Shown here: in pieces, positions 31,501 through 61,300 of the stretch
How the letters are laid out: every line of letters starts with the position of its first letter
Position numbering within the stretch: position 1 is the first letter of the stretch
DNA from: Clytia hemisphaerica
Taxonomy: Eukaryota > Cnidaria > Hydrozoa > Leptothecata > Clytiidae
Reading direction: 5' to 3'
DNA: 64,000 bases
Assembly: GCA_902728285.1 (NCBI GenBank)
Contig: CACVBU010000046.1
Coordinates: 558,001 to 622,000, forward strand
Notes under the pieces: generated by a model
What the model was told of the DNA's origin: nothing
Database searches by the model: none
Seen by the model: the letters and a program-made list of their open reading frames with translations, nothing else
Made by a program: the position numbers and the translations under genes

Positions 31501-33133
31501 TTTTTTCAACTCTAAGGCAGAAGACTACTGTGTCACCATTGATAGAGGAAAATCCTTTATTTTAACATTTTTGGAAAGCAGGATAGTTGGGCTTTCCAGA
31601 TTGGGCTTATTTTTTTTAATCGGTTTAGTAGATCAAAAGTTATGACGGAAAGCGTAAAACTGTCATTTTTCCCAAAACGACAAGGCGTGCACGGGGTGAA
31701 GTTCCCAGAGAGAAGGCGTGGTAAAGGTTAAGTTGCTTATATCTTCAAGCAACGGTCACCTGCGATGACGAACCAGATTACGGTGAAAAGTTCTACATTG
31801 GGTTAGCCGAACCTAAGTTCAAGAAACGATACGCCAACCACAAGTCATCCTTCGCCAACGAAAAGTACGAAAAAGAAACTGAACTTTCCAAGGAGATTTG
31901 GAGGTTGAAACGAAAGAATCGTGCCCCAGAGATTACTTGGAAGACAGTCCGTAAATGTCCACCGTTCAATCGTGCTTCGCTGAAATGTTCACTCTGCCTT
32001 AGCGAAAAATTAGAAATTGCCACATTCGACCAACCCGAGAAACTGTTAAATTCAAGGAATGAACTGATCTCGAAATGTCGGCATGTGAATAAGTTCACCC
32101 TCAAACTCCACGACACCAAAGACTGAAATGACGTCAATTACTTTGACGAAGACTTTACAGTGTACAGTATATTATTTTTGTAAACTTGAAACGAATTTTT
32201 GTATAGAATTTTTGACTGAAGATAGTGACGAAAAGTTGCGTGAAACTTTGAGTATCAAACAATTCTTATCTCAACTTCAATTTATTGTGTAGACATTTCT
32301 TACAAACTTTCCAATTTGATCATACAAACCTTAAAGTTAAGCTTAAGAACTATAAAAAAGTTCAGGAGGTATATGTTTAAATTTGGTATTTAAAATTTTC
32401 AGAATGTAAAAACAAATCATCGTCCACGCCTTGAATTTGAAAGTTGGGGGGGGGAGAATAAATATAGAGTCTAAGGTAGACGATCCTATCGTCTACACGA
32501 GATCACTAAAAAAGGGAATAGTTTAGGAGAGGCGGGATAAATTTGGGTGGAGTAAGCAGTGGCAGAGATGTTTACAGTGTTTGTTCCAAAACTCTACCGC
32601 CACTTTTTTTCCCGTAAACCACCCTGACGCCTTAACTCTTTCCCGGGTTTACTGACCTTTAAACGGACGATAGCATCGTCTAAGTCTAAGGAGGCGCAAA
32701 GAAAAAAACTTTTATTTTGCAAAAAAGTGTAATGGGCCCAGTCTTGATCAAGATCATCAAAACTTACTTTGTTCAACACGCCACTGGGTGGCGGTGAATT
32801 CATTTCCTCATCAGCACGCCTGTCACTCGAGAGCGCCTCTTCATAACTTCGCGCCGGCTTCCCAGCGCCGCCCTGCCCTTCAATTTCCATACTCCTAGGT
32901 GTAAAATTCTCCTCGTCTAAGAGACTATCGCGGTCTGCGGACCCTCGATTTGTACCAACTAAGTCGTTGCTGTTATTAGAGAGTGGCGGTAGAACAACTT
33001 TTTCTTCATCATCCACAACTTCTTCTTTAGGTGGGGCACTGGGTTCTAATGTGCTCTCCTTTTTACGTGATTTAGTTAATTTACGTCCGTTTTTTGTGAC
33101 TGTCGTTGCACCTTTCTTTGACTTAAGAACCAT
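13589..33133 (-). CDS. DCX-EMAP-type microtubule protein (two doublecortin domains, HELP, WD40)
   Basis: Thirteen exons join with matching phases: 33133-32768, 29756-29378, 23025-22885, 22455-21893, 20663-20537, 19827-19616, 18987-18745, 18255-17592, 17392-17010, 16762-16663, 16281-16046, 15781-15606, 13784-13589. The product is about 1261 residues. Order: a basic Lys/Ser-rich start, doublecortin domain 1 (about 193-270, split between exons 2 and 3), a Ser/Gly/Asn-rich linker, doublecortin domain 2 (about 430-515), a HELP motif (WVYGYNGRNCRNN, about 569-581), then atypical WD40 repeats to about 1190. This is the layout of fly DCX-EMAP, a microtubule-binding protein of mechanosensory cilia; EMLs share the HELP-WD part. 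The ATG at 33133 is preceded by an in-frame stop in genomic sequence. Another gene lies in intron 2 on the opposite strand. Identification as this family is firm; strict orthology is inferred. Confidence 0.9.
14156..14329. mobile_element. Tc1/mariner-pogo-type MITE
   Basis: Perfect 22-bp inverted termini begin CAGTTGACGCTCTCTAAT, with TA on both sides (14154-14155 and 14330-14331). The interior repeats TATTCGAT. These ends resemble pogo/Tigger elements, which start CAG and duplicate TA. It lies in the last intron of the DCX-EMAP gene. Confidence 0.85.
14474..14609. mobile_element. MITE with AAAGTCCATTTGCTTTAAG ends
   Basis: The left end AAAGTCTATTTGCTTTAAG is inverted at the right (CTTAAAGCGAATGGACTTT). 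A second copy with the same ends and the internal TTTGCTTTACTACCAT and GAAACCATGTCAG blocks lies at 55237-55378. The two copies are about 136 and 142 bp. Confidence 0.85.
14690..15565 (+). repeat. Copy 1 of a dispersed repeat (split by the 734-bp element)
   Basis: GGAGCAAGATTGATCAGAAA before the insertion and ATCAGCACAATATAAC, CTGATATGAAATATGTG and GTAAAAATAAAACC after it match the copies at about 19120-19262 (+) and, inverted, at about 19975-20120. All three lie in introns of the DCX-EMAP gene. Confidence 0.7.
14740..15473. mobile_element. 734-bp C-run-rich element with 5-bp TSD, nested in an older repeat
   Basis: The termini are CATAGTTTGCA and TGCAAACTATG. GCTTA occurs directly on both sides (14735-14739 and 15474-15478). 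The flanks join to make a sequence matching an uninterrupted copy of the host repeat (inverse of about 19975-20120). Subterminal C-runs (CCCCCCCTA) are strand-biased. No coding frame is recognised. Confidence 0.85.
18375..18657. mobile_element. MITE with CCTTATCGGCCAAAACTT ends
   Basis: Inverted termini of about 25 bp (CCTTATCGGCCAAAACTT, GTCGGCC) enclose an interior rich in CGACTAAATTTTGG and its inverse. It lies in the intron between WD40 exons 7 and 8 of the DCX-EMAP gene. Confidence 0.8.
19120..20120. repeat. Two inverted copies of the same dispersed repeat
   Basis: One copy runs about 19120-19262 (landmarks AGCAAGATGGGTCAGAAAG, TTCAGCACAATAAAA, GTGTCTGATATGAAACGGG). The inverted one runs about 19975-20120 and flanks the HELP-motif exon (19616-19827) on its other side. 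The pair forms an inverted repeat around that exon. Confidence 0.65.
20388..20473. mobile_element. Half copy of a TTTCGCTCCGAAACG-type MITE
   Basis: GTTCCGTTTCGCTCCGAAAC plus AATGAAGCCATTCTATTGG match the left arms of the complete palindromes at 36124-36247 and 42128-42235. Only a degraded right arm (ACCAATAGAACTTCTT) follows. Confidence 0.6.
20942..21580. mobile_element. ~640-bp element with GGATTAGAATAGGTGGATTAA ends
   Basis: A 24-bp terminal repeat around GGATTAGAATAGGTGGATT (from about 20945) is perfectly inverted near 21556-21577, and a subterminal CTCCTCGTT block pairs with AACGAGGAG. The flanking TTTGCACC copies are direct. It lies in a DCX-EMAP intron (20664-21892). No transposase frame is seen, so it is non-autonomous. 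Confidence 0.75.
23488..23642. mobile_element. 155-bp palindromic MITE
   Basis: TTCATGATATGCACC, GCAATGTCTTC and CCAACAGCTGATTGGTT on the left pair with AACCAATCAGCTGTTGG, GAAGACATTGC and GCGTATCATGAA on the right. It lies in the large DCX-EMAP intron 2. Confidence 0.75.
24413..24419 (+). promoter_or_regulatory. Possible TATA box of the multicopper oxidase gene
   Basis: TATAAAT lies 44 bp upstream of the start codon at 24463, a distance that would leave a very short 5' leader. It was chosen on sequence and position only. Confidence 0.35.
24463..27260 (+). CDS. Membrane-anchored multicopper oxidase (laccase family)
   Basis: Three exons (24463-24548, 24743-25725, 26137-27260) join in phase to 730 residues. 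Residues 1-20 are a signal peptide (MAFAIHIFVFLTLTLGLTNG). The copper motifs are complete: HWHG at 132-135, HWYHSH at 173-178, HPVHLHGH at 535-542, and HCHTMFH from 623 with the axial-position Met633. The fold is therefore three cupredoxin domains binding type 1, 2 and 3 copper, oxidising a phenol or metal substrate with reduction of oxygen to water. A hydrophobic stretch at about 689-713, followed by a short basic tail, predicts a type I anchor with the catalytic part outside the cell. Intron 2 carries a MITE. An ATTAAA signal is at 27318. The gene lies inside an intron of the DCX-EMAP gene on the opposite strand. Whether it is a phenoloxidase or a ferroxidase cannot be told from sequence. 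Confidence 0.95.
25777..25934. mobile_element. MITE in intron 2 of the oxidase gene (TTTTATACGGAAACAC family)
   Basis: The ends ATTCTTGATACTCATGACGT and its inverse near 25934, with subterminal AATCTTTTATACGGAAACAC, define the family. A second full copy is at 52626-52782 and a half copy near 53456-53496. It fills 158 of the 411 intron bases without touching the splice sites. Confidence 0.85.
27318..27323 (+). terminator. Possible polyadenylation signal (ATTAAA) of the oxidase gene
   Basis: ATTAAA lies 58 bp after the stop codon at 27260. It is a common variant signal; no other candidate is closer. Confidence 0.4.
27830..28306. mobile_element. piggyBac-like MITE with five ATGTCGTATATA palindromes
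   Basis: The ends are CCCTTTCCGTGCC and GGCACGCAAAGGG (12 of 13 inverted), flanked by CTAA on each side (27826-27829, 28307-28310), a TTAA-like duplication. Inside, five copies of a roughly 20-bp palindrome (ATGTCGTATATATCCGACAT and variants) lie near 27845, 27888, 28001, 28164 and 28207. A related end, GGCACGGAAAGGGC with ATGTCGGCATATGTCG repeats, remains near 44917-44970. It lies in DCX-EMAP intron 2, 3' of the oxidase gene. Confidence 0.8.
30674..31727 (+). mobile_element. piggyBac-like non-autonomous element, copy 1 (1054 bp)
   Basis: Perfect 13-bp termini CCTTTACCACGCC / GGCGTGGTAAAGG are flanked by TTAA on both sides (30670-30673 and 31728-31731). Subterminal repeats of CCGTAAATTTACG type follow the left end. 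No transposase frame is present. An inverted copy of the same length lies at 41044-42097. Ends plus TTAA are the hallmark of piggyBac. Confidence 0.9.
31751..32126 (+). pseudogene. Penelope-like element fragment: GIY-YIG endonuclease C-terminus
   Basis: A frame that runs from about 31751 to a TGA at 32126 encodes FYIGLAEPKFKKRYANHKSS, then ETELSKEIWRLK, a CSLCLSEKLEI Cys pair and SRNELISKCRHVNKF. This order is that of the GIY-YIG endonuclease tail of Penelope-like retroelements. The reverse transcriptase part is missing, so the copy is 5'-truncated. It begins about 20 bp after the right TTAA of the piggyBac-like copy and lies in DCX-EMAP intron 1. Confidence 0.8.
32477..32682. mobile_element. 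206-bp element with 9-bp TSD beside the first DCX-EMAP exon
   Basis: The ends are TAGACGATCCTATCGTC and its inverse GACGATAGCATCGTCTA. AGTCTAAGG is directly repeated on both sides (32468-32476 and 32683-32691). The right end is 76 bp from the donor of the exon at 33133-32768. TSD length fits a hAT- or Mutator-like origin. Confidence 0.8.
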
Positions 33134-36123: not shown

Positions 36124-36247
36124 TACACGCTACGGTTCCCGTTTCGCTCCGAAACGAAATGAAGCCATTCTATCGGTTAAATTTAAGATTTACGTCAATT
36201 CTAGCCAACAGAATGGCTTCATTTCGTTTCGGAGAGAAACAGAGCCT
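36124..36247. mobile_element. Palindromic MITE, TTTCGCTCCGAAACG family
   Basis: GTTTCGCTCCGAAACGAAAT followed by GAAGCCATTCTAT pairs with AGAATGGCTTCATTTCGTTT on the right. It starts about 105 bp after the foldback ends. Confidence 0.75.
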
Positions 36248-36627
36248 AAAACACTACACTACATAATAAACAAAACCGGTACGTGCGAACATGGTCTAAA
36301 ACGTTTAGAAAGTGACGTTTGTCGAAATTATGACGTCAAATATATATGAGAATTGTAATAAAAAGGCACGAATATAATATGATTTCTTTAAAATCATTTC
36401 GATTTTATTTTCCAAGCAAGAAGCGGGCGTTGGAAAATTAATTTAGTTTTCTAAGGGTGTTTTCAAAGATAAAGTGTCTTTGAAAAGGAAAAATCATAAC
36501 GTGATTTCAGATCACTAATGAACTAATATGATCGGAGGAAGCGATTATCAGTTATGGTCTCTGCACACGAGTCTCTCTGAGACCGTAGAAGCACAACACG
36601 GATAGGTCCATTGTGTGGATTTAAGTC

Positions 36628-37872
36628 GTGTTAAATGCGAGAAAATTGACAGACGACACCTTGCCTGTAGCATACAAACATGGCTTTTTTCTGGACGCCG
36701 TTCCTTCTGTAGATAGCCAGCATGGTTTCAGGAAACATCGGTCATGTGAATCACAACTTGTAACAACCATCCAAGACCTTGCTAAGTCCCTGAACGAAGC
36801 TAAGCAAATCGACTCAATTCTACTTGACTTTTCAAAGGCTTTTGATAAAGTTGACCACAAAAAACTTTGTCTAAAACTTCATCATTATGGCGTAAGGGGT
36901 AAAACTCTTGAATGGATCACCAACTACCTCTCCGATCGTACTCAAACTGTTGTCGTTAACGGCAATTCATCTGAAAAAGCTAATGTTATCTCTGGAGTTC
37001 CTCAAGGCACAGTCCTCGGCCCTCTTTTGTTTTTAGTTTACATAAACGATCTTCCTGAATTGGTTAAATGTAAAATAAGATTGTTTGCTGATGATGCACT
37101 CATTTACAGAGTCATTGACTCAATTAATGATGCCATAAGCCTTCAGGAAGACTTAAACCAACTCATGAATTGGGAACATGAATGGTCAATGGAGTTCAAC
37201 CCGGACAAATGTAAAGTTTTACGAATCACCAACAAGCGTAATACTATCATTCAACCATATTCAATGCACAACCAAATACTCGAAGTTGTTGACTCAGCGA
37301 AATATCTAGGTGTGTATATCCACAAAAAGCTCTCCTGGAATGTCCATAACGACTATACTGTTAAGAAAGCCAACCAAACTCGATGTTTCATACAAAGGAA
37401 TCTCAGATCATGTCACCCAAATACAAAGCTTCAATGCTACAAAACCTATGTCCGACCCATCCTGGAATATGGATCAGTCGTATGGGACCCTCACTCAGCC
37501 TCCAACATCTATAAGCTGGAAATGGTTCAGAGGAAAGCTGCACGCTTCATCTCGAATGACTGGCGGCAAATGAGTAGTCCCTCATCGATGCTTCGTAATC
37601 TTGAACTTAAAACCCTTCAAACCAGGAGAACAGCAAATAAAGTTAAATTCATGCATAAAATTCTTCATGGCAAAGTTGAATCTTTATCCGCTCTTGCACC
37701 TCGTGCACGTAACACTCATCTTAAACTTATTCCAATCAATGCAAGGATTCAAACATATGAATTCAGTTACTTCCCGTCAACCATCCGCCTGTGGAATGAA
37801 TTACCCGTGAATCTCATATCTGAGTTAAATTATGATTCTTTTTGTAAAGGTGTCAATGAGCACTATACTTAA
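36628..37872 (+). pseudogene. LINE reverse transcriptase fragment (CR1/jockey-like)
   Basis: One open frame of 414 codons covers the RT core: QHGFRKHRSCESQ (31-43), catalytic motif A LLDFSKAFDKVDH (65-77), motif B SGVPQGTVLGPLLF (122-135) and the FADD box (RLFADDALIY, 151-160), then the thumb and a C-terminal region ending at a TAA. The endonuclease part and ORF1 are absent, so the copy is 5'-truncated and probably dead, though this part has no stop. Similarity may begin only near 36710. It lies between the two candidate first exons of the DCX-EMAP gene, on the other strand. Confidence 0.9.
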
Positions 37873-41039: not shown

Positions 41040-41043
41040 TTAA

Positions 41044-42097
41044 CCTTTACCACGCCTTCTCTCTGGGAACTTCACCCCGTGCACGCCTTGTCTTTTTGGG
41101 AAAAATGACAGTTTTACGCTTTCCGTCATAACTTTTGATCTACTAAACCGATTCAAAAAAATAAGCCCATTCTGGAAAGCCCAACTATCCTGCTTTCTAA
41201 AAATGTTAAAATAAAGGATTTTCCTCCATCAATGGTGACACAGTAGTCTTCTGCCTTAGAGTTGAAAAAAATTCAAAACGCAATTTGTCATATTTTTCAA
41301 AATTTTAAGTTCCGGTTAAAAAAAAAGTGGGGAGAACATTTGCGATACCATAATTTTCTGGCTCATTGTTTCCACCATTATAACTACAACTGCTAGCCAA
41401 AAAATCACAATCATACCTTTACTAGAAAAGGCAGAATTCATTTTTAGAAAACCTTGGTTCTCGAGAAAATTTCCACGTAAATCAGAGGCACGTAAGGCAG
41501 AGGCCCCTTGAGGTAATTTTTATGGGAAATATCACTAAAAACAGCTAAAAATGACTTTCCTATCATCAACCAGCATGAAAGCAATAGAAATAACATAGTA
41601 TATACACTTTGAAACTCTTTGCAGCCTTATCAGAAGCCTTAACTTGGGTTTCGGTGACGGTTGATGACGGCCGACAAGCCTCCAGTCCTCACCCTTAATG
41701 TACTGTCATACTAAAGAATAAGGAGGCAGAAACTTACCTCAAACACTGACTAAACTACAAACAAGCAATACATAACATTTCCAACCAATAAAACAAACCA
41801 TTTTCCACTAAATAAACATAAAAAGTTAGTTACAGCAGTCAATGAGCTCATAATTTCCAAGAGAATATTTTGCCTGATTTTCCAGTTTGTTTTGACAGTT
41901 AAAATCGAAAGTAGGTGGTTTCAAACTATTGAAAATAGTTTGTTTACATTTTCTCTCCGTCATATAAGACATTTCCCGGGATTTAAAGGCGTCTTTAAGG
42001 CGGTAGGGCAGCTTTTCTTAACACCCCATGAAAAACGTATATTTACGGCCTCGGCTATATATTAGAACGTAAATTTACGGCCTCGGCGTGGTAAAGG
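41044..42097 (-). mobile_element. piggyBac-like non-autonomous element, copy 2 (1054 bp, inverted)
   Basis: It has the same 13-bp termini, flanked by TTAA at 41040-41043 and 42098-42101, and the same length as the copy at 30674-31727, from which it differs by scattered single bases (for example CCGAGGCCG against CCGAAGCCG). It is in opposite orientation about 9.3 kb away. Confidence 0.9.
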
Positions 42098-42119
42098 TTA
42101 AGATATTTCAGACCATGCT

Positions 42120-42242
42120 CGCACGTAACGATTTCGTTCCGCCCGAAACGAAATGAAGCCATTCTATTGGTTACAAATGACGTAAACTTGAATGTGACCA
42201 ATATAATGGCTTCATTTCGTTTCGGAGCGAAACAAAATCGTT
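42120..42242. mobile_element. Palindromic MITE, TTTCGCTCCGAAACG family
   Basis: ACGATTTCGTTCCGCCCGAA, GAAATGAAGCCATTCTATTGG and the inverted GGCTTCATTTCGTTTCGGAG with AATCGTTAAG define both arms. It is directly followed by the AAGCTGGGAG element. Confidence 0.8.
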
Positions 42243-43314: not shown

Positions 43315-46300
43315 TTAAACAAAGCCAAAAACTTTGATCTTGATAGCCAGTAACAGTTTACTTCTCAGTATAGCTTTTGATGAATAGATGGGGAGATAGA
43401 GACGTGAGATACACGTGTTCGCTGTTGGTAGTTGATGGTCGTTCGCTGGTTTTACGGTAACCGAAGGCATTGGTTGGAATCCTTCAGCACTTGCTGGCAT
43501 CGCTGGTGATGATGTCCAGAAATAAAGCTGAAGAAAGATAGAAATGTTAAAGTTTTGCGTATCCATATCGTCGTTCACATGACTAAAGGTTAAATCTCAT
43601 AATTAGTACCTTACAAAATTTTAAATTTTACTGTGGTGGTCATCTTTGAGATTGAGATTGACATTTTTATATGTAGAGGAATAGTCAATGTTTTCATATG
43701 ACAAAAAGGCCAATCTCAAAGGCAGAACAGAATTGCAAGATTTCCAATTTTCCAAGACACTTATTTTGAGATTGAGCCGTTAGTCATGCGTATCCATATA
43801 GTAATTACTCTGTACCAGAGTGCATCTCACGTTTATCACTTCGTAGTACAATCTACGGCAATGAATTTTGAAATTAGCTGTAGATACTGGGTCTGTGTAC
43901 AGACAATATAGTAATTGGCTATACCTAAATTGGTCTAATGTCGACATTCCTTGTCAAATTCCAAAACCCCTCTTTAAGGATATGAATAATAGGAAGGTCG
44001 GAATCGCTGATTGAAACTTTATTTCTTTGCTTGGCTATCAGAGAGGAAAATCTTTTTTTATTCAGTGATTTCGGCCTCACTATTATTCATATCTTTAAAG
44101 AGGGGTTTTGGAATTAGATGAGGTATGTCGATAACTTGCAATAGAGCAGCTTATTCAAAGTCAACGCTTACAATATATTTCGAAACCCCACAATCAGTCG
44201 AAGGGATCAAATGAGATTCAAACGAACGAGATCCATATTCAACCAACAGATAAATTTGAAAATAAGAGCATACATTTCACCATATTTTCACAAGACCACG
44301 AAAAAATGAGAACGAAGCTATTGTAGCAGCGTTTTATATAAAAGTAAAGGAGCAGAGAAACTACTTTATAAACATACCAAATCTTGTTTTTGTTTTGAAG
44401 TCATGTTTTCGAGGATGGACCAAAACCATTTCTTGAACTTTGTGAGTTTATCTTGACCCTCTCCTAGAAAATAAAATACATTCAAAGTTGCAAACCCAAT
44501 AATAGACGATGCGATTTGAATAGAAGGATTTTAGTAATTTGAGGCTGATCATCCCTTTTAAAATTTTCACTACCTTAAAGGAAGAAATTTAATTTAACAG
44601 TTTTTTAGAGGGAATTTAATTTGGCGAGTAGACGAAAATACTAAATTTGGCGTTTGCTAAAAAAATTTATCCCTATAATAGCGTAAAAACAGCAAAAAAA
44701 AAAAAAAAAAAAAAATGCAAAAACACCTTAAAAGAGATTATATTTTCAAAAAGTTTAATTTGACGGATGGCGGAAAAAAGAAATTTTGGCGGGAACTTAT
44801 GGCCAAGTCCGCCAAATCTACCAAATTTTCTTTCCGCCAAAATTTCTTCCTTTAAGGTATTCATTTTTTTTCATTTAAACCATTAAAAATCTTACAAAGA
44901 AAACGAAAATGCTAGATGTCGGCATATGTCGATGTCGGCATATGTCGACTTCGGCACGGAAAGGGCTGTATACAAAATCACGGGCCTAACATACCTCCAG
45001 TTTCATCTGAGAATGTAGTGTAAGCTTGTAGTTGTTGTATGTTAATATCTCCAGCCCCGTTGAGAAGCAGCCTAAGATCTTCTGCCGTTAGACCCTCCAA
45101 GTGTGATAACGAGATGACGTCTTGTACACCACGTTTGATAGCCTAAGTACAATAAAATAGGGGAAAAACTTCACTTTTGTGCATTTCCCGAAACAGAAAT
45201 TAACAGTAAAGGAAATTAATCCTCGTTGAAAAGTTAATCTTAAGTGGAGCGATTTAAAAAAGAAAAATTAAGAAGAAGCAGGAAAAGACTTCTCTGATTA
45301 ACCAAAAATAACAAGCAACATGCTGAACGGACCTACCTAGTGATCAAAATCAGATAAAAATAGGACAAATAGCAAGAGAGTAAGAAAGTGTAACGAGGAG
45401 TTTGAATATAGGCACTTTTCTGCCCAAATTTGCTCAAAAAATTATTTTTTCGAAAATCAGGCTCCATCAGAAATTGAATATTACCATTTTATATCACTAT
45501 GCAAAAAATAAGAAAAAAACACCAAGCCAATCTCGATAAATGCTCATTTTCCCTAAATATGACAAAAGGGAGTTTCCCCAAATAAGAAAATCCGATTTTT
45601 ACGGCCATAAAATTTTTTCCGGAAAAAACAGCTTCAGTTACGTTTTAGAGATACTTGCCTTTTATCTTTGTCCAAAAAATTTGAAAAAACTAATGAAGCA
45701 ATTTCACACCAAGTCCAGAAAACCCCATTTTTAGGCACATTTTGGCCCAAATTTGCCCCAAAAAATTATTTTTTGAAAATCGAGCTTCATCAAATTTTAA
45801 AGATCACCATATTACATCAAAGTGCAAAAAATCAGAAAAAAATATCGATCCAATCGCCAGAAACGCTCTTTTTCCCTAAAAATGACATAAGGGAATTTCC
45901 CCAAATAAGAAAAACCGATTTTTATGGCCAAAAAAAATTTTCCGAAAAAAACTGCTTCAGTCACTTTTTAGAGAACCTTGCTCTCCATCTTTGTGCCAAA
46001 AATCAGGAAAAACTAATGAAGCAATTTTGCACAAAGTCCAAAAAACCTTATTTTTAGGTAGTTTTTGGCCCAAATTTGCCCCCCAAATTTTTTTTTCAAA
46101 AATCGGGCCCCATCACTTTTTAGGCATTGCTATTTTGTATCATTGTGCAAAAAATTAAAAAAAAACTAATGAACCAATCCCGAGAAAAGCTGCTAACAGG
46201 AAAATGGTAAAAGGGAATTTCCCCAAAAAACGAAAATCCGTATTTTACGACGAAAAATAATTTTCCGAGAAAAATTACTTCAGCCACATTTTAGGGTACC

Positions 46301-49300
46301 TTGCACTCTATCTTTCTGCCAAAAATCAGGAAAAACTAATGAAGCAATTTTGCACCAAGTCCAAAAAACCTTATTTTTAGGTAGTTTTTGGCCCAAATTT
46401 GCGAAAATCCGTATTTGACGACGAAAAAAAATTTTCCGAGAAAAATTACTTTGGCCACATTTTAGGGTACCTTACACTCTATCTTTCTGCCAAAAATCAG
46501 GAAAAACTAATGAAGCAATTTTGCACAAAGTCCAAAAAACCTTATTTTTAGGTAGTTTTTGGCCCAAATTTGCCCCCCAAAATTTTTTTCAAAAATCGGG
46601 CTCCGTCACTTTTCAGGCATTGTGCAAAAAATTAAAAAAAACTAATGAGCCAATCCCGAGAAAAGCTTGTAACAGACGAACGGACAACGGTCAAATTAAA
46701 GGACCTCCCGGTAGGTCCAAAAATTTAGATGGACAGACAGACAGACAGACTGATAGACAAACCTGTAAACAACGCGAGCAATTGATGTACATTCGATATT
46801 CTGCATACTTCTTGACGTACTCCAATACGTTGTCAGGGGCTACTTCCACTTGTGCACCACCTTTCGTCAACTCAACACCGTGCCCACCTTAAATGGGAAA
46901 TGATTGAATATTAAGTCAGAGGCCGCCCGAAGGCTCCTCTTTAATAGCTATCTACCCGAAGGTAGGGGAAGGCGCCACTCTTTCTCCTTAGATTGCTCCA
47001 CTTATCCCTACCCTGCTCTTAATTTCTGAAAATCAAGCAGAAAGGCATTAGGTACCATAATCCATTACTGTATGTGAAACGTTGAATCAAGCGAAACTAA
47101 CCTTCTTCCACAGGGAGCTGTATGTAAAACGTTAAATCTAACGAAGAGAAAAATTCGGAGCTATCTGGTCGTTTGGAATCTTCAATCAATTGTCGAAGGC
47201 TTTCGTAGAGTGTTGGATCGTAAAACGCCAAGTCATGCCAGCTGATCTATAGTGACAAGAACATTTTAATTATGAAGTGATAGCATTATAGACCAATTCA
47301 CAGCAATGTCATTATGTTTTGGTTTGTCTTGTTTTTAGTCTAGCAAAGCTGCATTGAAATACAGGATAATGGAGACAAAAACCCCCAATTTTGCCCCCAA
47401 CTTTTGTCTCTTTTACCTTGGTTTTCAAACCGAAAATCTTGAACAAAAGTGAGACCAAGCGAGATCACAAAAACAAACCAAAACAAGTGAGAAGTGGTCT
47501 ATTGGGTTTATAATAGACGGAAAAATTCGAAACAAGTAAATCATTTAAGTATTGTGTAGGAGCTTTCGTCTGAAACTTAAAATTATCAACTATGTGGTTA
47601 TAATGAAAATAAACCGGCGATGAACACAAGTACAAAACTCTGCATCAAAATAACTTGAATTGCAAAAAAAAATTCGACCGGTGGCCATGTCGTACTGAAA
47701 GGTTTAAAAATATATAAAATTTCACGCAGTATTTTTTTTATCAGATCAGATTTATATTAACAGTCTAGAAAGTCAAACAAGGTACAATAATTTGATTTTT
47801 TAGGGAAGAAATTTTTCGCGAAATTAAATTCCGCGAAACAAGAATATTCTCGCGATTTAAAAAATCACGCATAGAATTGGTGTTTTTGGGGAAAAATAAG
47901 CCATATCTTAAACAAAAATTCCTCTCAAACGCGAAATTAAATTCTACGAAAATTTCTTTTCGCGAAAATTTCTTAAGGACCAATTTCTTACCGGTCTACT
48001 GAGAATGTATTTCAAAACATGACGATTCAAGCTGAGCGGGCAGATCTCGTTTTGTTCCAAACATAATCCAATAACTCTGTCAGGAAAAAAGAAAAAAACA
48101 TTACGAAAATTATATTCTACTATACCAATACATGATCTCAGGGCCTCAGAATTTTTTAAAAGGGATCATCAGATGATTAGATGAGTCGAATATCTCAGCT
48201 TTGGAAAATAATTGGGTCAAAAACTTTGGAGGTGTTTCTTAGGACCATAAAAGGTATCTCTAAGCCAAATATCTAAAAATCATCTGATAATTATTAATTC
48301 CTTTAAAAGAATTTATTTGAGAACAATATAAAAAATAATTGGATTTCCCCAAAAAAGACAGACAAGAGTTTAGGATATATTTCCACGAATGGTAAATAAT
48401 CGTCTTACTTTAGCCTGTGGCAAACTAACTCAGGGGGGGGGACTGAAAGTTAAGGACCTGAGCAAGATTGGGAGTTGCGTGGGTGGTGGTTGGTGAGTGG
48501 TTATTATAGACAGCATAGCCATATGAGGGGCTTCGGTTTATTGTTTAAAATGATCTTCTAAACAATCGATTCAGTTTACTCATACAGTAGCGCTAAAGAT
48601 TCTTGTTACAAACAGGTTTTAATTATTTACTCTTTTGAAGGCAGTTCATTTAGTTCTGATTGAGAAACAAAAATTCACATTGTGACCATATGTTGACTTG
48701 AGGGTCTATACCCTACTATCGCATGTCAAAACAATATCAATTGAAGAGCGAAACATTTAATGGGAAAATAGCTTCCTTCTTTAGCAAATCACAAAAAAGT
48801 CACACATGAAAATTTAATTTAAAGCAAAACAATATTATTTCTTGTGACTTGAAAAATAAAATTTTCTTCTTTTTAAAGAGAGATCATTGCTTCGTCAACA
48901 GTTGTCAAGCGAAAAAAAGTCATGAAGAAGCTTTTAGCCAAACTAGTAGCAGTTAATATTTGTTTAATTGTGACAGAAGCAAACGGTTCAAAAGTGTTCA
49001 ACCTTATTGCGACAGACAAGACCATAGTAGCCACCCCTTTTCAATCGACGACGGCGCATTATGGGCAATGCTTTAGTATCTGCTCCTTAAATCTTAAATG
49101 TCTTTCTTTCGACCATTCCTACACATCTGACATTGGAGAATGTAGTTTCTATGATTTGTATCAGACAAATAATTTGAAGGAAAAGCCAGGGGTTAAGTTT
49201 TATTCCCAAACTTTACTTACTGCCACTGATTGCGTTGATTGGTTTAATCTCGGCTACCGTAAAAATGGCATCTATGAAGTCAATTTGTTGGGAAAATACA

Positions 49301-52300
49301 TGCGCCGTGTTTATTGTCATATGCAGGCGGCCGAGGGCGGTTGGATGGCCTTTCAACGTCGATTTGATGGTAAGTTTTCGTAAAACCCGGGACACCCTCG
49401 TAAAATTCACTGAAAATGCTGAAGGACTATTACAATATAGTATTAGCATTAAATAATTGGTATTAAAAGTGTATTTCAATAGCAGAAATGGAAAGTTTCG
49501 TAGATACAGATACAAAATCTCCAGGAAATGTATCCTCAAAATAGAGACCTTAGGAAACCATTACAACTACGCGGATAGGTTCTATCGCGAAGTTTAACCT
49601 TATTCAAGAAAAGGGAAAGGTATCGCTAGAAGCGTCGGAAGATATTAATCAGGTTCAGCCTCGCAAAAAATCCTTCCCCCAGTGTCTTTTGATTGTCAAG
49701 GTAGACAATGACATTCTAGAACTCCCTTTCCGAGAAGGGGGGGGGGCACGCAGTTACTACAAGACAGTATGACACTTACTACCGTGGTGGTACTGTATTC
49801 AGAAGTTATGAAAACAGTTACTACACAGTGTAGTAACTGCTGTTTGGGGGTGGTGCCAAACACTAAAACTAGCACTTTTGGTGTAGTAAGTGCTTATAAT
49901 TTAATTCTTTTTAAAGAACTTTCAAAATTTTTCACAAAAAATGATTTTTTTTGTGAAAAAATTCTTTGTTAAAAAAAATATTTTTGTTATAAATGGACGA
50001 AAAAAAATTTTTCTCAGACCCAACTTTCCCTAATTTATCATTAAAATGTTCTCAACAGCTGTTAACCAAGTAAATTAAAAGAAAATCTAGCACAAAAATG
50101 GCTTTAGGTTGAAAAATAATCGCAATTTAGGGTAATTTCGAGCATGTTTTTGATGATATCACTCAAAAACAGGGGTGGTACCTGGAAATCTTTCTGAAAA
50201 CAGTTACTACCAAGGTGAAGTAACTGCAAAAGGTGGTGGTCCTAAAAAAAGTGTTGAAAAAGCACTAACTACACATCATGTCTTGTAGTAACTGCGTGCC
50301 CCCCCCCCTGTTCCGAGACGTTAAAGATCGTATAATTGAGTGTGAAGGCAGTAGAGGCTTTAAGACTCGAATACGCACGAGGAACACAAATTTATTCGGG
50401 TTAAGGAAATTTCGAGTTATGGAGTAAGGTTTATAAAGTATTGTTAAATGAAGGGACCATAAATCTTGTTCGAGTTAAGTAGACTTATAAAGGTTCGAGT
50501 TAAAGAGACTCCACTTTACTAGACACCATGGCATTCTAGAAGTGTCTGTTTATTTCAACTCCCTTTCTGAGAGGTAAGAGGTCGTATAATACAGTGAAGT
50601 CTACATAACTCGAACACGCACGAACAATATAGAGATATACTTTTTGTTTATCCAACACACAGGGAGTGTCAATTTTTTTGGTCGAAATTGGGAAGAATTC
50701 AAGAATGGTTTCGGGAATCCCGAGGGCGAATATTATCTTGGAAACGAACTTTTACATTTGCTGACAACCTCTGAAGACTATGATTATTTAGTAGAAGCAC
50801 GAAGGCATGAGTCTGGGACTAGTGCTAGAAGAAAGTTGATCCACAAGGTCCACATCGAGAGCGAAGAAGAAGATTACAAGATCCAATACAGATTGGAGGA
50901 TATTAGTAATGTATTACAATTTATGTTTTTATTTAAACCGTCGATCAAGTTAATTCCAATTAAGGGAACCAGAAGCCTCAAACACACTTTCAAAAGCATT
51001 TTTTTAATCTTTTAGGTGTGGCTTTTTCTCTAAGATAATATATCAATACATTTCTTTAGCCAACTTTTACAATTATGAGCTAAGCGTGAAGCTGCACTTC
51101 TACCCGACATTTGTGACGAAATTCCGCGAAAATTTCTTCTCGCGAAAATTTCTTCCCTTAAGGTATTTAGATAACAAATATGTTTTCCTTTCCATAATAA
51201 ACAGCTAAGAGAAGCATTTTTTTCATTTATTTACAGAGCTACGGTGGATCTTCGGCTTACGGAACTAATATGAGAGGCCAAAGGTTCTCCACTTTTGACC
51301 GTGACCGGGGTAACGATAATTGTGCAAAAAAGTATGGGGCGTGGTGGCACGAGAGATGTCATACAGACGCAATGAATGGTCAATATTCCCACAAAAAAGA
51401 ACCAGTGTCTTTTGCCAACGGCATCATTTGGTATGATTGGACAGGACATCAAGAGTCGCTCAAAAGTAGTTTGTTAATGGTACGACGTTCTTCGTTCAAA
51501 CAGAGAATTCCATGAACAATTTATTATCATTTATTAAATGTTAACACTAGCCTGTTAGAGAAACACTGCTTATTTATTGTGTACGTTAAATAAACAAATA
51601 AAAATTTGGTCAGCGTTGTTGGTGGGTAGTTATTGGCTACTGTCATCAGTGTTAAGTAGTCATAAACTAGAATGGGCTCTTCCAGAAAAAATTCGTTCAT
51701 AGGGGGGTGGAGGATATTATTTTTTTCATGAATTACCCCTGGACATTTTGACTTTTAACCCCCTGGACACGGGTTATACCCCTCGACAAACATCAAATCA
51801 ACCTCGTGGACGCAAAAAAATACCCCTGGACATTGGAATTTACCCCCTGGACATTGCGATTTTTTTGGTATTTTTTCAATACCCCTGGACAATTCATTCT
51901 TCACCCCCCATGAACGGATTTTTTCTGGAAGAGTCCAATACCCATGTCTCAGTCTGGAGATATTATTTGATACGGTTTACACGTTGTTTTTTATAAAAAC
52001 ATCCAAAAATTTAAAAGCCTTCGGGTGTTCTTAACTTTTTAGGTTTTAAGCCTAAAAATGTTCTTAAAATGTTGTTATTTTCTCCGTTTTGTGACCTTTC
52101 ATACCCATTTTCCTGAAAAAATCGGGTTTTCAGTTGGAAAGCACACACTGAACCGCTGGGAAAAGGTTGATACGACTTTCCTATTTATTGAATATCGAAC
52201 TTTGTTAATAATATAAGGCTGGCCTTAAAAAGATGTTGATTCGCCGTCAGCCGACCAACTCTTCTTTAAACTTGCCGACTTTATTTTATTGCTATTTGAT

Positions 52301-55300
52301 GAAGAGAATTTTTTTTCTTCAAAAATTAAAAAATGTGAACAAAAATTCAATGAATGACCAAAAATTCCGACCGACCGACCCACCTCCAAAATCTAGGGTG
52401 GGGTGACGGCAAACCAAGAATTTTTTAAGTCCAGCCTAACAAATATCTAAATATATGGAAAAATCAAAATATAATAGCCGCATTCTTTTTCACCGTCCAA
52501 CATAAATATATGGAATATGTACAGTAAACTGCAACGCCCATGTCAAATGATATTATGTTGGAAAAAACATTGCAAGTTAGTTATTTGTGGACACTTTATT
52601 TAGAGTAGTGAGTAAGACATGAATAATTCATGATATTCATGATGTAATCTTTTATACGGAAGCACACAAAATAATCCGGAACTAGTGGTAAAATTTGCCA
52701 CTAGTCTTTTGTTATTTTGCCACTAGTTCCGGGTTATCTCGGGTGCTTCCGTATAAAAGATTACGTCATGAATATCATGAATACACCTTTCCCGTAATTC
52801 GTAAAACTAATGCGCACGCATTATTTCTATGCTCTCCACCGTTTGGTCTCTGGAGGTAAACAAACCCGTTTTTCCCTGCGTTTCCTTAGAAAAAGTTTTT
52901 TTTTGAGCTTTTCTTAAGTTCTGTCGAACAAAACCCCCTAAAATTTTAGTATGTTCAATCTATTCATGATATTATACCACCCTGAAAATCTTTTGCCAAA
53001 AGAAGATCACTATCAAAAGTTAGAGGCTGAAAACCCACTTTCCCTAACCCCTCACAGGCAAAAACGCGTTTCTTTATATGTATTCATATGATCCAGCGAC
53101 AAAGCACTCCGTTTTTGAGCACTCTGGTGACAGCAATGATGCGTCCTTAAACACGTGACTGCGATATGCTCATCGATTTGATGATTTCTAATAATATTCA
53201 ATGGGGGTATCCTATTCTAGTTATGAATTTCATACCATAAAACTGGGACGAGATGGAGTTTTTACAAGCTCTTATTTGGTTTTGTTGGTCGTTAACCAGT
53301 AATAAAACAATTTTGTTACTTTTTCTAAAGAACGCGTAATTTTTATTACTTCAAATGACCAATTATTGACCAAGTATCTTATAAAAACTCCATCTCATCT
53401 GAGTGTAATTGTATCTCTTCTGATAAAACTGATGACAAGCGCTCAGTGTTCTTTGGGCGTTTTCATATAAAAGATAACGTCATAAATATCAAGAATAACG
53501 CGAGGGTTGATAAGTTTGTCAACTTTAAAGATGAAGGGCGGTCTTAATGTAAAGAGTAGGAACATTCGGCGGGGTCATCATGACATCACACACCTATACA
53601 CCATTTTGGATTTTGAAATTCCCATCGATAATTTTTTTTTTACTATGCAATAATCTAAATATTAAATCAAAACGTTACAATATATGATTTGCTTAAAATA
53701 CGTACAGCTAGGAAATATAATTCAAAAATAAAAAAAATAAAACACACGACACAAATAAATATAGTATGTCAATACTATCGTTGTGGATGCTCAAAACAAT
53801 TTCTCCATGCTTGAAGTTACCACAGGAAAAAATTATTGATACCCAAACCCATATGGAAATTTCAATTTACCCATACGGAAATTTCAAATTATTTTTAGTT
53901 TGCGATTTTGACTTATGGATTTCAAGAGGTTTTGAAATATTGCTTCCATTTCATTGTTTCTCCTTTATCATCGACAAAATCATGGAAAAAATTTCAAAAA
54001 ACTTAATAAGCAGGGGGGTTGGAATAAGAATGTCCTGGGTGGAAAATTTTCGAAAAATTAATCAGCGGGGGGGGGGCGGCTGTTAGGTACCCGAGAGTAC
54101 ACAATCATCTATTTCAATCATATAGGAGGATATTTTCACAAATGGCGAAAATCCTGTGTATATCAAAAGCTGAGGATCAGATTGTGTGTTTTCTTGAAAT
54201 TTCTTTGACTCGTATTGAGATTTAGAACGCCATTGTTACTTCTTTTTATCTTGACTCATATCGAGGTACTTTCTTCCTTGTGGTCGTTTTAGATCACTAG
54301 TTTTTCATTGATGGATTTCGATGTCATCAAATTTTCTTTTTCAATTCCAACCTGATGATTCTATGTGAATATTCATTCTTTCTAGACTTTGTTGTTAAAT
54401 CATGTATGTCCTTTTGTTAAATATACAGTATGCAGATCTGACGAGTCCTAATAAGGACGAAATGTATATGCTGCTCTGCTATAATCCTATTTCAATCGAG
54501 CTTGGGAAAGTGGGTGTCAAAAGATAAACTCGTGAAAGCAGCTAAACGAGTTGGTATAACAGACACTGGTTTGAATGTTCACTGGATGAAATTTCAGTCC
54601 GCTGCCAGTTTGCTTCACAGCACACCTATTGTACAAAAACCAACACAGTCGAATTCGTCTATTCAATCACCGTTAAACGTGAGGAAAGGAACCGCACGTC
54701 ATATCATAAATACAAATATGAACAGTCGATGAAAAGGATACAAGAGCTCGAAAATTCGATACCTTCACTCGACGAAATAGATCTTCTGTGCATCTAAATC
54801 AAACCTAAGGAAGCTTCATCAAAGAAACATAAAATCACACAAGTACACGGTTCGATGCGTGCAAATGACATCATCAAAGCTGCCGAGAAAATACCTGCCG
54901 ATAAAGAAGAGAAAGGAAACAAGAAAAAACAGTTGATCGAGAAAAAGCAGCACGAAAAAGAACCCTTTTACCGATGCAAGACAAAGTGTGTCTGTATTGG
55001 AAAATGTGCTGCGGCTGTCTTCAATGAATGTTCCGTGTGTCATAACATTCTAAAATCACAATGTACCAAGGAGCCTGGTGAAAAGCCAGTTATGTTACAA
55101 GTAGAGGGGGGGGGTAGAAAAAGGGGCAAAACCAGCAAAAGGATAATATTTGCAGAGGACTCGTCAGACGATGATTTCGAATGATGTATTTATTATCCTT
55201 CGTTATTTTGAATTAAATATTACATCGATACTTTTTAAAGTCCATTCGCTTTAAGGGTGCACTCTCTTGCGCTACCATGTGGAAACCATGTCAGTGTCTA

Positions 55301-58300
55301 ATTTCCCACTTTGCTTTACTACCATGTAGAAACCACATGGTAGTAAAGCAAAGTGCACACTTAAAGCAAATGGACTTTCTAAACTACATTATACATTGCG
55401 TTAGTTTGAAAATTGATTGATTCTTGTTTTGCTCCTTATTCATTCATTTTTCAATTTGAGTAATTTAACGTAAATAAAGTTATGATAGAGTTTGATCTGG
55501 GTCTTTCAATGTTTTTATGTGCTTTTTAGTTGGAGTTAAATGGTTTTTATGTTCTTTACCTCTTATTTTCCAAAAATTTACCGCTTTTCAACATTCGAGA
55601 TTTGAACAAGTGATACTTTGATGAACCTACCTGGATTATGCATTTAACACGTTTATAATTGATATCTACGTGACGTGACCATTAAACAATCATTCAGAAC
55701 ACAAATAGTGATGATGTATTAAAATTAGTCGTTTGTTTCTTATAAAAAAAACGTTTAGAAACCAAAATTTCATGCTCTTGTTCTTTCATATTCAAGATTT
55801 CGTGAGCAAAAAAACATCTCCAAAAAATTTAGTAATTTGGCTAAGAACATTGATGTATGTTTATTAATAGTGATTCTTATTGATCAAGATGCTTTTTTTG
55901 AGCTGAAAAATTCATTTTTTACAAAAGTCTGCTCGAGCCATCTTTTATCTACTTTCATACAAAAAATCAGTCCAAAAAACAATTGTCCAATATTTCGCTA
56001 AGTCCAAAAAACCCTTTTATGGCCGTTTTTTTAGCTGAAATTTACTCAAATTTTTTTTCTCAAAAAATCGGGTTCCTTCACATTCGAGGATTTATAGTTA
56101 TGCATCTTTGTGCAAAAAATCGTAAAAAATGAAAGAGCCAATCAATCTAATACCTAAGCAATTGATAATGTGCTCATAAAAAATATCGAATTTGGCCAGT
56201 TTTTCTATAAAAACACGCCAAACAACCAAATTTCCTGTCTAAACACTCGTGAGAAAAAAAAACATCTATCTCATAAAAAAATTGAGTAATTTGACTGAGA
56301 ACATTGATGTATGCTTATTAATAGTGATTCTTGTAGATAAACATGCGTTTTTTGAGCCAACAAAATTTTTTTGCAAAAATCTGCTTGAGCCATCTTATAC
56401 CTATGATGGTACCCTACTTTCGTGCAAAAAATCAGAAAAAATTAATGATCCAATTTTTTAGCCGTTTTTTGGCCCAAATTTGCCCCCAAAATTTTTTTTT
56501 CGAAAATCGGGCTCCGTCACATTTTGGGCATTGCCATTTTGCATCATTGTGCAAAAAATCAGAAAAAACTAATGAGCCAATCATGAGAAAAGCTGGTAAC
56601 TAACGGACGGACAGACGGACGGACGGACAAAGGTTAATTTATAGGACCTCCACCGGGGTAGGTCCAACAATAATGAGTTCTTATCGTCATTTAGATCAAA
56701 ATTGGCCCACGGAATGCTGGTCATATAAAATTTGATGTAGTTTTTTTCACAGATTTGTCAAGCTTTTATGTTTCTTGAAATAAGCAGCTTTAAGGATATA
56801 TTATAATTATTGTACCACCTTTTATCGAGTTGATTTTTATAGTTTTTTTTATATAGACGAAGTTATTGGAAGAAACTGTATTTTTACGTTTCGTACGTCA
56901 AATACATCACCCGAATTTCATCCAAAACACGCTTGCTTACTCTTTCTTTTTATATTGTGATGTATCTTACATGCTTTTTGACCAAACTAATTCAAATGTG
57001 CAATGTTGTTGACATTAGTTCAAACTTTACAGCCAATTTTCGAAAAACCTGCATTCTGTGGGCCACCTGCATTCTGTGGGCCAGGAACTGTGTAGGAGAA
57101 TATTTTTTTTTCTCGGGGAGTATAAAAAATGACCTTCAAACACAAGTTCTAAATAATGAATTGTTCAATAGATTGAATGGTTTCCCATGGATAGATTGAA
57201 TATGGTTTTCCCGTTATGGTTTCCCATGGGTTTTGAAAGATTTCATCATGCCAGATCTTTTTAAAATTTGAAATCTCATTCAACTCCTTTTTCATTTCTT
57301 ATCAAACGTATAATTCTTTTGCCTTGATAAGTCACAGTTCATTCGTTCTTTGATTGACACAACGCGATTGACCAATAAATTACAAATAAGTTGAGAAACG
57401 ATACATGTTCTTTTTTTATTAGAACAATTTAGAATAGCTAAATATTTAGAAAAAAAAGGCTCAAACAAGTCAAAACCTTAGCACAAATTAGAAAATGATT
57501 CAAGTCTCTGATTCCAGAGAAGACTCAGAACATTCTGATTTAAAAACAACAAGCAAATAGCAATACAGTCAACTATCTCTCTTTAATTCGAACCTCTATT
57601 ATTCGAATCTTCCTATAATTCGAACTCAAATACAAGTCCCGGGATGGGATTTAATTTTGCGGTTCACATCTCAAAATTCGGAAGTTTCGCGGAATTTGAT
57701 TTTTGTACTTACTTTTTAAAGAATGTTTTACTTGAACTTTGTTAAGAACATTTTAAGAATAAAGCCAGAAAAAAAGAAAAGTCAAGTCCAACTCAAATTC
57801 ACTGGTTCTTATAATAAAAGCGTACGATTCTCGCTTCAAAATTTTGTCGACTTTGTTGACAAGATCACTAAATGTGAGAGTTTTTCTTCAAACGTTGCAT
57901 AGTAATTGTTTCTATAGTTAAAGGAATTGAGATCATCCCCACGAAATAGTGAATTGTGACGGCCAAAATAAGACATTGAATATTCTCTGAATATAAATGG
58001 TCGATTGTGATGAATGAACGATAAAAGCATAGTTTCCATTATTGACTTTTTCAACAAAAATAAATTTAATTTATTTTAAAAATATTTTTTCAATTGAAAT
58101 GACACTTTTAGTGTGGTTCAGAGGAAATTGACACCAGAGTTTGACAGGTATGAAGATGTTTTTGTTCAATGCGGTGCTTGGGATTTTCTTCATAGCTAAT
58201 GAAGCTAATGGTTCAAAAGTATTCAACCTTATTGCAATAGACAAGGGCATTGTAGTCGCTCCTTTTCATTCGACGACGGCGCATTATCGTCAATGCTTTA

Positions 58301-61300
58301 GTATCTGCTCCTTAAATCCCAAATGTCTTTCTTTCGACCACTCCTACACATCGGACATTGGAGAATGCAGTTTCTATGACGTTGGAGTAGCAGTTTTTAA
58401 CCAGACAACTAAATTCCAAGAAAAAATCGGTAGCAAGTATCATTCCATTCATATGGCCACTGATTGTGCTGACTGGTACAGACTGGGTCACCGTGAAAAT
58501 GGCGTCTATGAGGTTCATCTGTTGTCTAAGTATAAGCGCCGTGTTTATTGTCATATGGGGGCGGCTGAGGGCGGTTGGATGGCCTTTCAACGTCGATTCG
58601 ATGGTAAATTTCTTTTACATTTAATATTTTTCGCCATACAGTCCCTGGAAAACTCAAGTGGGAAACGCAAAGTTTTTTTTCATTCGAGTGTTTTAAGAGA
58701 CATTCCATTTGCAAAGGTTCGATTTATGGAGACTCAAATTATATCATTTCCAGAAAGGTACGATCTTTTTAGAGGCGTTTCTAGCCATATTCTGACAATT
58801 TCGCTGTTTTTACTACGTTAAAAATTTTTAAAGGATTCACAATTATAAGAATTGACTAAAAACACTGTTACTTGGCTATGTGAAAGTTGTTCAGCGTTTA
58901 GGACTATTTTTAGACGATAAAACTGTTCTTCGAACTACACGCGCTTTACTGTGTGAAAACCAGTAAATTTATTTGTTGTAAATTTCAGGTATAAAATGAT
59001 CTCAAAAAAGTTTGTTATTCACTTATTGACTTAAAATGTGTTTAAATTTGAATACATTTTCTTAGCCACTTTTTGAAATCTAAATCTGGGATTGTTTTTA
59101 ATTTGTTTTTAAGTTTTAAGTTTTTCCCAAAATTGAGCCTCCTGTATTTTTTCTCATTCAGGAAGTGTTCAGTTCATTGGTCGAAACTGGGAAGAATTCA
59201 AGAATGGTTTCGGAAATCCAGAGGGCGAATATTATCTTGGAAACGAACTTCTACATTTGCTGACTACCTCTGAAGATTATGATTATTTAGTAGAAGCACG
59301 ATCGTATGGGCAAGCGAGTTCTGCTAGAAGAAAGTTGATCCACAAGGTCCACATCGAGAGCGAAGAAGAAGATTACAAGATCCAATACAGATTGGAGGAT
59401 ATTAGCGAGGTTAAGTATCAGTGGATAAGTTCTGGTTCAGACGGCCCACTTTTTCGCCCTGCCTTTTCTAATTTGAGTTATAAAGTAGGCAGAAAATCGG
59501 CCATCGACAGTCAATGCATTGCACTCTTTCGACGTCAATACAATGTCTTCTTTCAAACTTTTCTAAGTAAAGATTGCAACTGCCAAATTTCTGTCCACTT
59601 TTCCCCGACGAAGTTGTCCCCGATAAGGTATTTCGCTTATTTACAGGACTATGGTGGAGCTACTTCATACGGTACACTGATGAGAGGTTGTAGATTCTCC
59701 ACCTTTGACCATGATCGTGATACAGCTCCGGATCAAAATTGCGGACAACTCTACGGTGGTTGGTGGCATGCCTGGTGCCATGACGTCGCGATGAACGGAC
59801 ATTACTCTCACACTGAAACACCAGTGTCACCCGCTAGTGGTATTATCTGGCGCGATTGGAGAGGACACGGTGAGACATTGAAAAACAGTTTGTTGATGAT
59901 ACGACGTTCTTCATTCAAGCAGTGAATTGGTATCTACTATACTGTATAAACTTATTAAAGTATACTCAGAATACTCGCAAAGCCATTGCATTTTTGAAGC
60001 TAATTTTATGTGGCTCTGGTAGACTTTTTGCAAAATAATTTGCTAATGGTACGACTTTCATTGTTTTGCAAAGTAAAATAACACGTGTCTCAAGCTGATA
60101 GTATTATTCGGAAAGATTGGGGAGAGCATCGTGATAGTAGTACTAGCTCCAGCAAAATTAATATTTATTTTGTCGGTATTAAATTATTATTGTAATGAAA
60201 ATTATATAACGTCATGTTAGTGGTCATTACAGGGGGTGCATTCACTGAATACTTTGGCGGTAAGACTTTAAATGTTAAAAGATATCTCTTCTCGGTAAAA
60301 ACATTGTGAATTTTGATATCAGAAGTGAAATATCAACGATGTAACTTCATTTTATTTTTATTTTACTTGACAATATATTTCGATACTTTTGTATCATCAG
60401 TCTAAACACAATGATCAAAGATTTACAGGCAAGATATCAGGAATACATCAAGGATAAAAATCAAGTTACCAATCTAATACAGAGCCAGTTTTCCACGCTA
60501 GAAACAAAACTAACATCCAAGATAGAAGAGACGTTGAATAACAAGACTGCAAAAATTCAAACCGCAACAGAACCACGTAAGAAAAGTTTTGCTGAAGCGA
60601 CTAAAAACAATGATCAATTAAGCGTAAATAGCATGAAACAGCTACTACGAGAGGAAAAAATCGACGAACAAATTGAGGACCAAAGGAAACTATCGACAGA
60701 CGCAAATATCATTATCCATGGGGTAAATGAAAATGAAAATAAGAAGATATCGATTTCGTTACTGAGCTTCTGAATGACGTTAATTTAAAGACTCAACCAA
60801 CCTACGTCTCTCGTGTTGGAAAAGAATCTAAGGTTATGCGCCCAATCAAAGTTGTATTCAAAGACAGTCATAACAAATACAGATTCATGAAGAAGTTGAC
60901 TGAATTGAAACAACACGAGAAGTACGTGAAATTAAGTATCACCGACGACTTGACAAAAATGGAGAGGGAACAAATCAAAGAGTGGAAAAAGAGAGCAGAC
61001 GAGATGAATAAAGCCAGATCGAATGACGATTTTAAATGGAGGGTACGAGGAAGCCCTCGTGAAAAATTATATTTTAAAAAGATATTTTGTACAAGAACGG
61101 TTTAGAGGCCCTTGTGCCTCAACTGTAATCACAAATTGTAAAGAAGCGTTGACTTTTATTAGCCTTTGTTGCTACCTGTTCGTCAACTTGAAATAAACTA
61201 TTACATACATACATCATCAGGTCTAAAAAATAAATAAAGATAAAAGTTAAAAACAGTAAAACTGCTTGCTAAAAAACTTCAGTATTTACACGTCAAATAC

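Follow-up and report, generated by a model that had tools for sequence, protein, structure and literature searches.

A Penelope-like element fragment beside a probable retrozyme hammerhead remnant in the genome of Clytia hemisphaerica

Metazoan non-LTR retrozymes, as described by Cervera and de la Pena in 2020 (PMC7229834), carry one type I hammerhead per unit, are predicted to form highly self-paired RNA and give rise to RNAs of ∼170–400 nt with a GC content below 50%. The same study proposes Penelope-like elements (PLEs) as their candidate partners, because the two share the type I hammerhead and the tandem arrangement and are found together in the genomes analyzed (PMC7229834). According to a 2020 review, metazoan retrozymes have no conserved motif from which an autonomous partner could be deduced (PMC7761336). 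In our partial search of the literature, we saw no particular PLE family named as the partner of a retrozyme.

Craig et al. in 2021 are said to have reported PLEs with an N-terminal endonuclease that have no canonical hammerheads and favour microsatellites. Canonical EN+ PLEs (Penelope/Poseidon) have a C-terminal endonuclease and a hammerhead in the element, and two papers describe tandem or inverted partial copies and pseudo-LTRs for them (PMC3846280, PMC11167929). For an Anolis PLE, reverse transcription begins at an internal site of the template, and a binding site of the protein somewhere in the first 172 nt of the ORF is put forward as a hypothesis (PMC11167929).

We analyzed a window of 64,000 nucleotides from Clytia hemisphaerica (positions 558001–622000 of contig C34) and searched the assembly of this species (417 Mb, 951 contigs). 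The window contains two pieces of retroelement side by side (54098–54418 and 54425–54479), where an earlier note on this DNA had seen one 367-bp insertion, and the locus as such is a fossil composed of elements of two already known kinds. We are fairly confident that it is a relic of two pieces in the same orientation, a PLE 3′UTR fragment and a hammerhead remnant of a retrozyme. All features of the locus are given on the + strand.

The retrozymes of this genome resemble the metazoan elements described above in having one type I hammerhead per unit and a highly self-paired predicted RNA, in unit length (300 and 303 bp, within the range of about 150–450 bp expected of tandem units) and in GC content (44% in the unit of locus L010). 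They differ in their very short helix III, which is nearer to the amphibian type working as dimers, and in that 17 of the 26 distinct places among the matches listed are single copies of 114–123 bp. The PLE is probably like the N-terminal GIY-YIG PLEs of the Chlamys/Hydra type, with a putative GIY-YIG before RT, tandem and inverted copies, simple-repeat ends and no hammerhead detected. It shares tandem or inverted partial copies and pseudo-LTRs with the canonical EN+ PLEs, whereas neither their C-terminal endonuclease nor their hammerhead is seen in it.

The two pieces of the locus

A search of the genome with the sequence 54109–54497 returned 635 candidates, 40 of which were scored. All 40 start at query position 1–6, and the 39 non-self matches among them end by query position 310, before the hammerhead. 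With flanks added, homology to the PLE spans 54098–54418 continuously (∼80% identity to L004–L008, 81% to L003 and 83% to L002), which we assign to the 3′UTR of an N-terminal GIY-YIG PLE, without its last ∼63 bp. A 368-codon reverse transcriptase frame lies upstream of the 3′UTR sequence in two of the eight loci (L004 and L008; the others hold shorter pieces). In a fuller copy (L009), GIY-YIG is N-terminal to RT (PF01541, E = 0.0013, 19.4 bits against a cut-off of 22.6; RVT_1, E = 2.9e-6, 27.6 bits against a cut-off of 29.6). L009 has two PLE 3′UTRs (3737–4094 and 7697–8058), the first of them 3.96 kb upstream of the second, so that PLE copies stand in tandem, the arrangement expected of a pseudo-LTR. 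The element is probably a PLE as judged from GIY-YIG and RT, both below the curated cut-offs, from its tandem structure and from a resemblance in sequence to PLEs. NCBIfam gave no match for two PLE ORFs, and a search for a PDB relative of the RT returned only an unrelated match (E = 0.58). The PLE end motif occurs 14 times, in 12 of the 15 fetched loci (none in L014, L016 and L018), and continues into CTATATATA in 11 cases; of the other three ends, one runs into a MITE-like repeat (L009:8028), one is diverged (L011) and one of the L013 copies continues into other sequence.

The left edge of the PLE fragment adjoins, at a TA, the terminal repeat of a MITE-like element. The piece at 53983–54097 is the right-hand part of a repeat resembling the ∼273-bp terminal-inverted-repeat (MITE-like) element of L008 and L009 (blastn identity of 86% over 53986–54099 and 92% over 53983–54057), and in L008 this element has a terminal repeat with TA flanks. 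On the right, an A/T tract, AAATATA, joins the PLE fragment to the hammerhead remnant; this PLE-hammerhead junction was seen at none of the other loci examined in the genome.

The type I hammerhead remnant (54425–54479), in which we assigned the borders of the parts by hand, consists of the distal strand of helix I (54425–54428), an internal loop (54429–54431), the proximal strand of helix I (54432–54437), the core (54438–54444), helix II (54445–54458), GAAA (54459–54462), a helix III stretch (54463–54468) and the 3′ strand of helix I (54469–54479). The claim of the earlier note that every conserved base of the core is present holds: CTGACGA...GAAA (54438–54462) is intact, and helix II is unbroken. 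The GTA cleavage triplet that it had named does not hold, as alignment with tandem copies puts the cleavage after an AUA ending at 54468 (inferred site 54468/54469). The Rfam model Hammerhead_1 matches 54432–54479 with 22.3 bits (gathering score, 34; E = 0.0057 over 451 bp and 0.8 over the window), and an Rfam scan of the window at the gathering threshold returned no match. The earlier note had taken a score below threshold as telling against the motif; the score is indeed below it, but copies from tandem arrays score no better than the window copy, so that the gathering score does not discriminate here (24.1/52 for the L010 tandem and 22.4/34 for the L009 single copy; no gathering-level match in 10 retrozyme loci).

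Pairing in the window copy is damaged. The two helix I pairs next to the cleavage site are lost (2.1/1.1 is U-U and 2.2/1.2 is A-G), as is the outermost distal pair; the L010 hammerhead has all 10 tested helix I pairs, an internal loop UAU/U and a loop 2 UAAUAA. Folded freely, three stretches that include the motif had unremarkable z values of -0.88, -1.03 and -1.93, and the hammerhead fold was not the minimum. For the window 55-mer, the minimum-energy fold has -13.2 kcal/mol compared with -12.2 kcal/mol for the hammerhead; for the L010 55-mer, it is a non-hammerhead fold with -19.4 kcal/mol compared with -15.4 kcal/mol. The window hammerhead most likely has low or no self-cleavage activity, judging from its sequence. 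In the L010 copy, the helix III stretch UGCA is palindromic, which makes cleavage as a dimer likely. We saw no second copy of the insert or of the hammerhead in the window (best other match, E = 0.031), which holds a single 55-nt remnant. We also considered, and rejected, a type III hammerhead: ATATACA and TGTATAT can pair, but the 7 nt between UA and the core are, by eye, unable to form a helix I.

Retrozymes in the genome

The exact core CTGANGAGTCCN6GGACGAAA occurs 258 times in the genome (132 forward and 126 reverse), compared with 0 and 0 for a reversed-pattern control. A 93-bp query around the window hammerhead found 328 candidates, of which 41 matches were listed; the 26 distinct places counted above are L025–L053 with four C273 loci merged and the window excluded. 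The retrozyme unit is ∼300 bp long with one type I hammerhead each, and stands in arrays of 3.5 units of 303 bp (L010) and 3.8 units of 300 bp (L054), both at 99% identity, while C273 has five hammerheads spaced by 303, 304, 300 and 304 bp. Tandem copies about 200–370 bp apart, which the earlier note had named as the mark of a retrozyme, are therefore found elsewhere in the genome and not at the window locus. Metazoan retrozymes are expected to have TSDs longer than 4 bp, where they have any; the L054 array has GTGGTATATAT on both sides, twice on the right, and the L010 array shows no evident TSD and no evident (TA)n on its left, which tells against our reading. They are also expected to have neither LTR nor a protein of their own; in this family, stop-to-stop frames of 100–106 amino acids recur with the unit.

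Twenty short copies have their 5′ end at the start of helix I, with TATA within 16 nt to the left in 15 of them and the 3′ end CACATATATA in 16. Under a somewhat different pattern, 22 of 29 hammerheads have a common 3′ end, TTTCTTCACATATATA or close to it, no more than 110 nt away. These 29 copies come from L025–L053 (L050–L052 were left out as overlapping, and L028 and L048 lie outside the counting pattern), and in all 29 the retrozyme runs on beyond the hammerhead as CTGCCAC. The window copy shares 51 of 54 bases (94%; 54426–54479) with the unit of the tandem retrozyme and has a 5′ boundary, AAATATA|CAGTATGCAG, that recurs as ATA|CAGTATGCAG in L027, L028 and L031. It stops at the hammerhead edge, the sequence 3′ of the hammerhead being wholly lost, so that its retrozyme origin rests on 54 bp; this abrupt end is the main weakness of the assignment.

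Circular folds of two retrozyme variants are far more stable than expected (z = -5.67 and -6.35; 0/100 shuffles as low in each). Comparing the two variants over 91 predicted pairs, 11 are changed on both sides, 1 is changed on one side and none is broken; with just the two variants to compare, over a structure that was itself predicted from their sequences, this covariation is indicative only.

L058, L059 and L060 contain a hammerhead of another class (CTGATGAGTCCTGGGAAGGACGAAACGCGTG or a near variant of it), with flanks that do not match the retrozyme unit; it is possibly another retrozyme or PLE family, and in L058 it is closely followed by (TA)n. L063:281–487 contains two hammerheads 85 bp apart, far closer than the 300-bp retrozyme spacing.

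Alternative origins of the locus

In the earlier note, the locus was read as one hammerhead-bearing insertion of 367 bp that had entered a transposase relic with a TSD of 11 bp and whose removal restores the reading frame. The length is right (54120–54486), an exact 11-bp direct repeat, CTATTTCAATC, does flank the hammerhead-bearing stretch (54109–54119 and 54487–54497), and TSDs of 8–10 bp are possible for PLE insertions (PMC3846280). The left repeat copy, however, lies within continuous PLE sequence: six PLE copies (L002 and L004–L008) have CTATTTCCATC in its place and share 10 of its 11 bases, and PLE homology continues for another 11 bp to its left, where an alignment that good is reached by only 50 of 18280 real 11-mers. 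Such repeats are also common: shuffling the 801-bp region gave two exact copies of an 11-mer, separated by 50 bp or more, in 67 of 500 cases, and of 316 real windows of the same size 130 contain such a pair; our preferred reading of two adjoining pieces leaves the right copy to chance. The supposedly restored 10-residue peptide is encoded wholly on the right side, within 54493–54522, by the right repeat and its flank alone, and even with the insert in place its frame extends to the left without a stop, across the hammerhead, as far as 54442. The gene-relic piece right of the composite (54504–54578) is 81% identical to C941:485703–485777 and C138:11107–11181, and these two homologues have no significant match to the sequence left of the insert (best match 18 bp, E = 0.47). 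Three pieces of the relic matched nothing in Pfam at cut-off, which leaves the label 'transposase' unconfirmed. We consider a single insertion very improbable. The alternatives offered for its nature, PLE tail or retrozyme, are both borne out, as two pieces, whereas single insertion, TSD and restored gene are not. Still more remote is a chance match to the hammerhead, a negligible prospect in our judgement: the score is below Rfam gathering with E = 0.8 over the window, but the core matches of the genome compared with none in the control, and the 51 of 54 bases common to tandem retrozymes, speak against it.

The hammerhead could instead belong to the pseudo-LTR of a PLE subfamily that has diverged, the arrangement known from Penelope/Poseidon, with no retrozyme piece at the locus. 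A canonical PLE has a hammerhead near the start of its ORF (PMC11167929), a hammerhead stands directly 3′ of the PLE 3′UTR here and, as another variant, in L026, and in the window similarity to retrozymes stops exactly at the hammerhead edges. We think this improbable, as a scan at E up to 2, in which weak motifs could be missed, found no hammerhead in the complete PLE of L009 or in the PLE portions, some of them 5′-truncated, of L010, L011, L013, L015 and L017; the hammerhead matches in these six loci are the retrozyme copies of L009 and L010. Moreover, the L026 retrozyme runs on past its hammerhead, and the 5′ boundary in the window is that of truncated retrozymes. A stronger contender, if still an unlikely one, is a single event in which RT, while copying one of the two RNAs, retrozyme or PLE, switched to the other as its template; such a mechanism is compatible with our preferred reading of a PLE fragment beside a retrozyme remnant. 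The common orientation of both pieces and mixed junctions in L029 and L026 would fit such a switch, but sequential insertion into the same (TA)n tract accounts for the junctions equally well, and the PLE piece (∼80%) looks older than the hammerhead (94%), a comparison confounded by subfamily divergence.

Retrozymes, the PLE and (TA)n tracts

Retrozymes and the PLE both join (TA)n tracts and are often adjacent. Of the 26 retrozyme places among the matches listed, 6 (L026, L029, L033, L034, L036 and L045) have PLE sequence no more than 1.5 kb away, where by rough arithmetic, with at least 635 PLE candidates, chance would give well under 1 in 26. PLE sequence is also nearby in L010, which was fetched as a PLE match, L054 and L064. 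PLE and retrozyme share one (TA)n tract tail to tail in L033 and in L034/L009, where a MITE-like element now separates them; in L029 the retrozyme 3′ end is joined directly to a 5′-truncated PLE, and in L026 a PLE 3′ end is followed by the retrozyme.

Comparison of the retrozyme with the PLE 3′ sequence gave a score of 17.5, which 136 of 200 shuffles equaled or exceeded. Downstream of ATATATAT, the retrozyme aligns to the part of the PLE 5′ region that follows the ATATATAT of the PLE, with a score of 31, reached by 0 of 200 shuffles (maximum, 26.5); among 1020 real segments of the window, not counting two that carry a hammerhead, the best unrelated one scores 30. Without the TA run, the score is 25 compared with a maximum of 23.5 in 1344 segments. 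The second retrozyme variant scores 28.5, with one unrelated segment higher at 29. This longer alignment thus barely exceeds unrelated segments for the first variant and falls below the best of them for the second. A short box, TGAGGMTTTCCYCCYT, ∼21–24 nt after the AUAUAU tract, matches between PLE and retrozyme at 13 of 16 positions, which 1 of 4264 control segments reached, and among 272 post-(TA)n segments a score of 13 is found in PLE and retrozyme copies only.

The joining to (TA)n, the frequent adjacency and the weak common box suggest, without proving, that the PLE mobilizes the retrozymes. We tentatively propose, as a serious possibility that falls somewhat short of probable, that an N-terminal GIY-YIG PLE without a hammerhead of its own does so in this genome through a mimicked RT start and a recognition region downstream. 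We infer cleavage, circularization and the use of the PLE enzyme by retrozymes as follows. The hammerheads of multimeric retrozyme transcripts would cleave these into monomers, which a host ligase would then circularize; since helix III consists of hardly more than the palindromic UGCA, cleavage would probably take place in dimers. The RT of the PLE would next copy this RNA, starting where an AUAUAU tract inside it pairs with a nicked (TA)n target, and the products would be arrays, or truncated copies, that all share the same 3′ end. The retrozyme RNA may in this way imitate the reverse-transcription start of the PLE and the recognition region just downstream, which contains the box. The window copy would have arisen with the usual 5′ boundary of truncated copies and lost its 3′ part and two helix I pairs.

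If true, this would name an autonomous partner that has so far been proposed in general terms only. The best candidate is a PLE without a detected hammerhead, tied to the retrozymes by target site, 3′ end and a short common box, and the families behind the locus make it testable which autonomous element moves metazoan retrozymes.

The PLE copies of L029 and L054 are 5′-truncated at the same PLE position (∼2569–2570), each just downstream of a retrozyme, and the L015 PLE is apparently truncated near 2569–2570; this may be a hotspot of 5′ truncation.

Elsewhere in the window, two 1070-bp segments (30662–31731 and 41040–42109) form an inverted pair with 98% identity, a recent duplication or mobile element. 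A reverse transcriptase ORF at 36625–37872 probably belongs to a non-LTR retrotransposon (RVT_1, E = 1.8e-28), and 45409–46690 and 55800–56618 have diverged tandem and dispersed repeats in common. Four repeated stretches (25766–25946, 36143–36238, 42130–42238 and 52635–52773) give sub-threshold matches to unrelated microRNA families and are most likely MITE-like inverted repeats. Genes at 48877–49383 and 58132–58821 are duplicates with 78% DNA identity over ∼410 bp; the second, the copy of the pair that the scan covered, has PAN and fibrinogen C-terminal domain matches.
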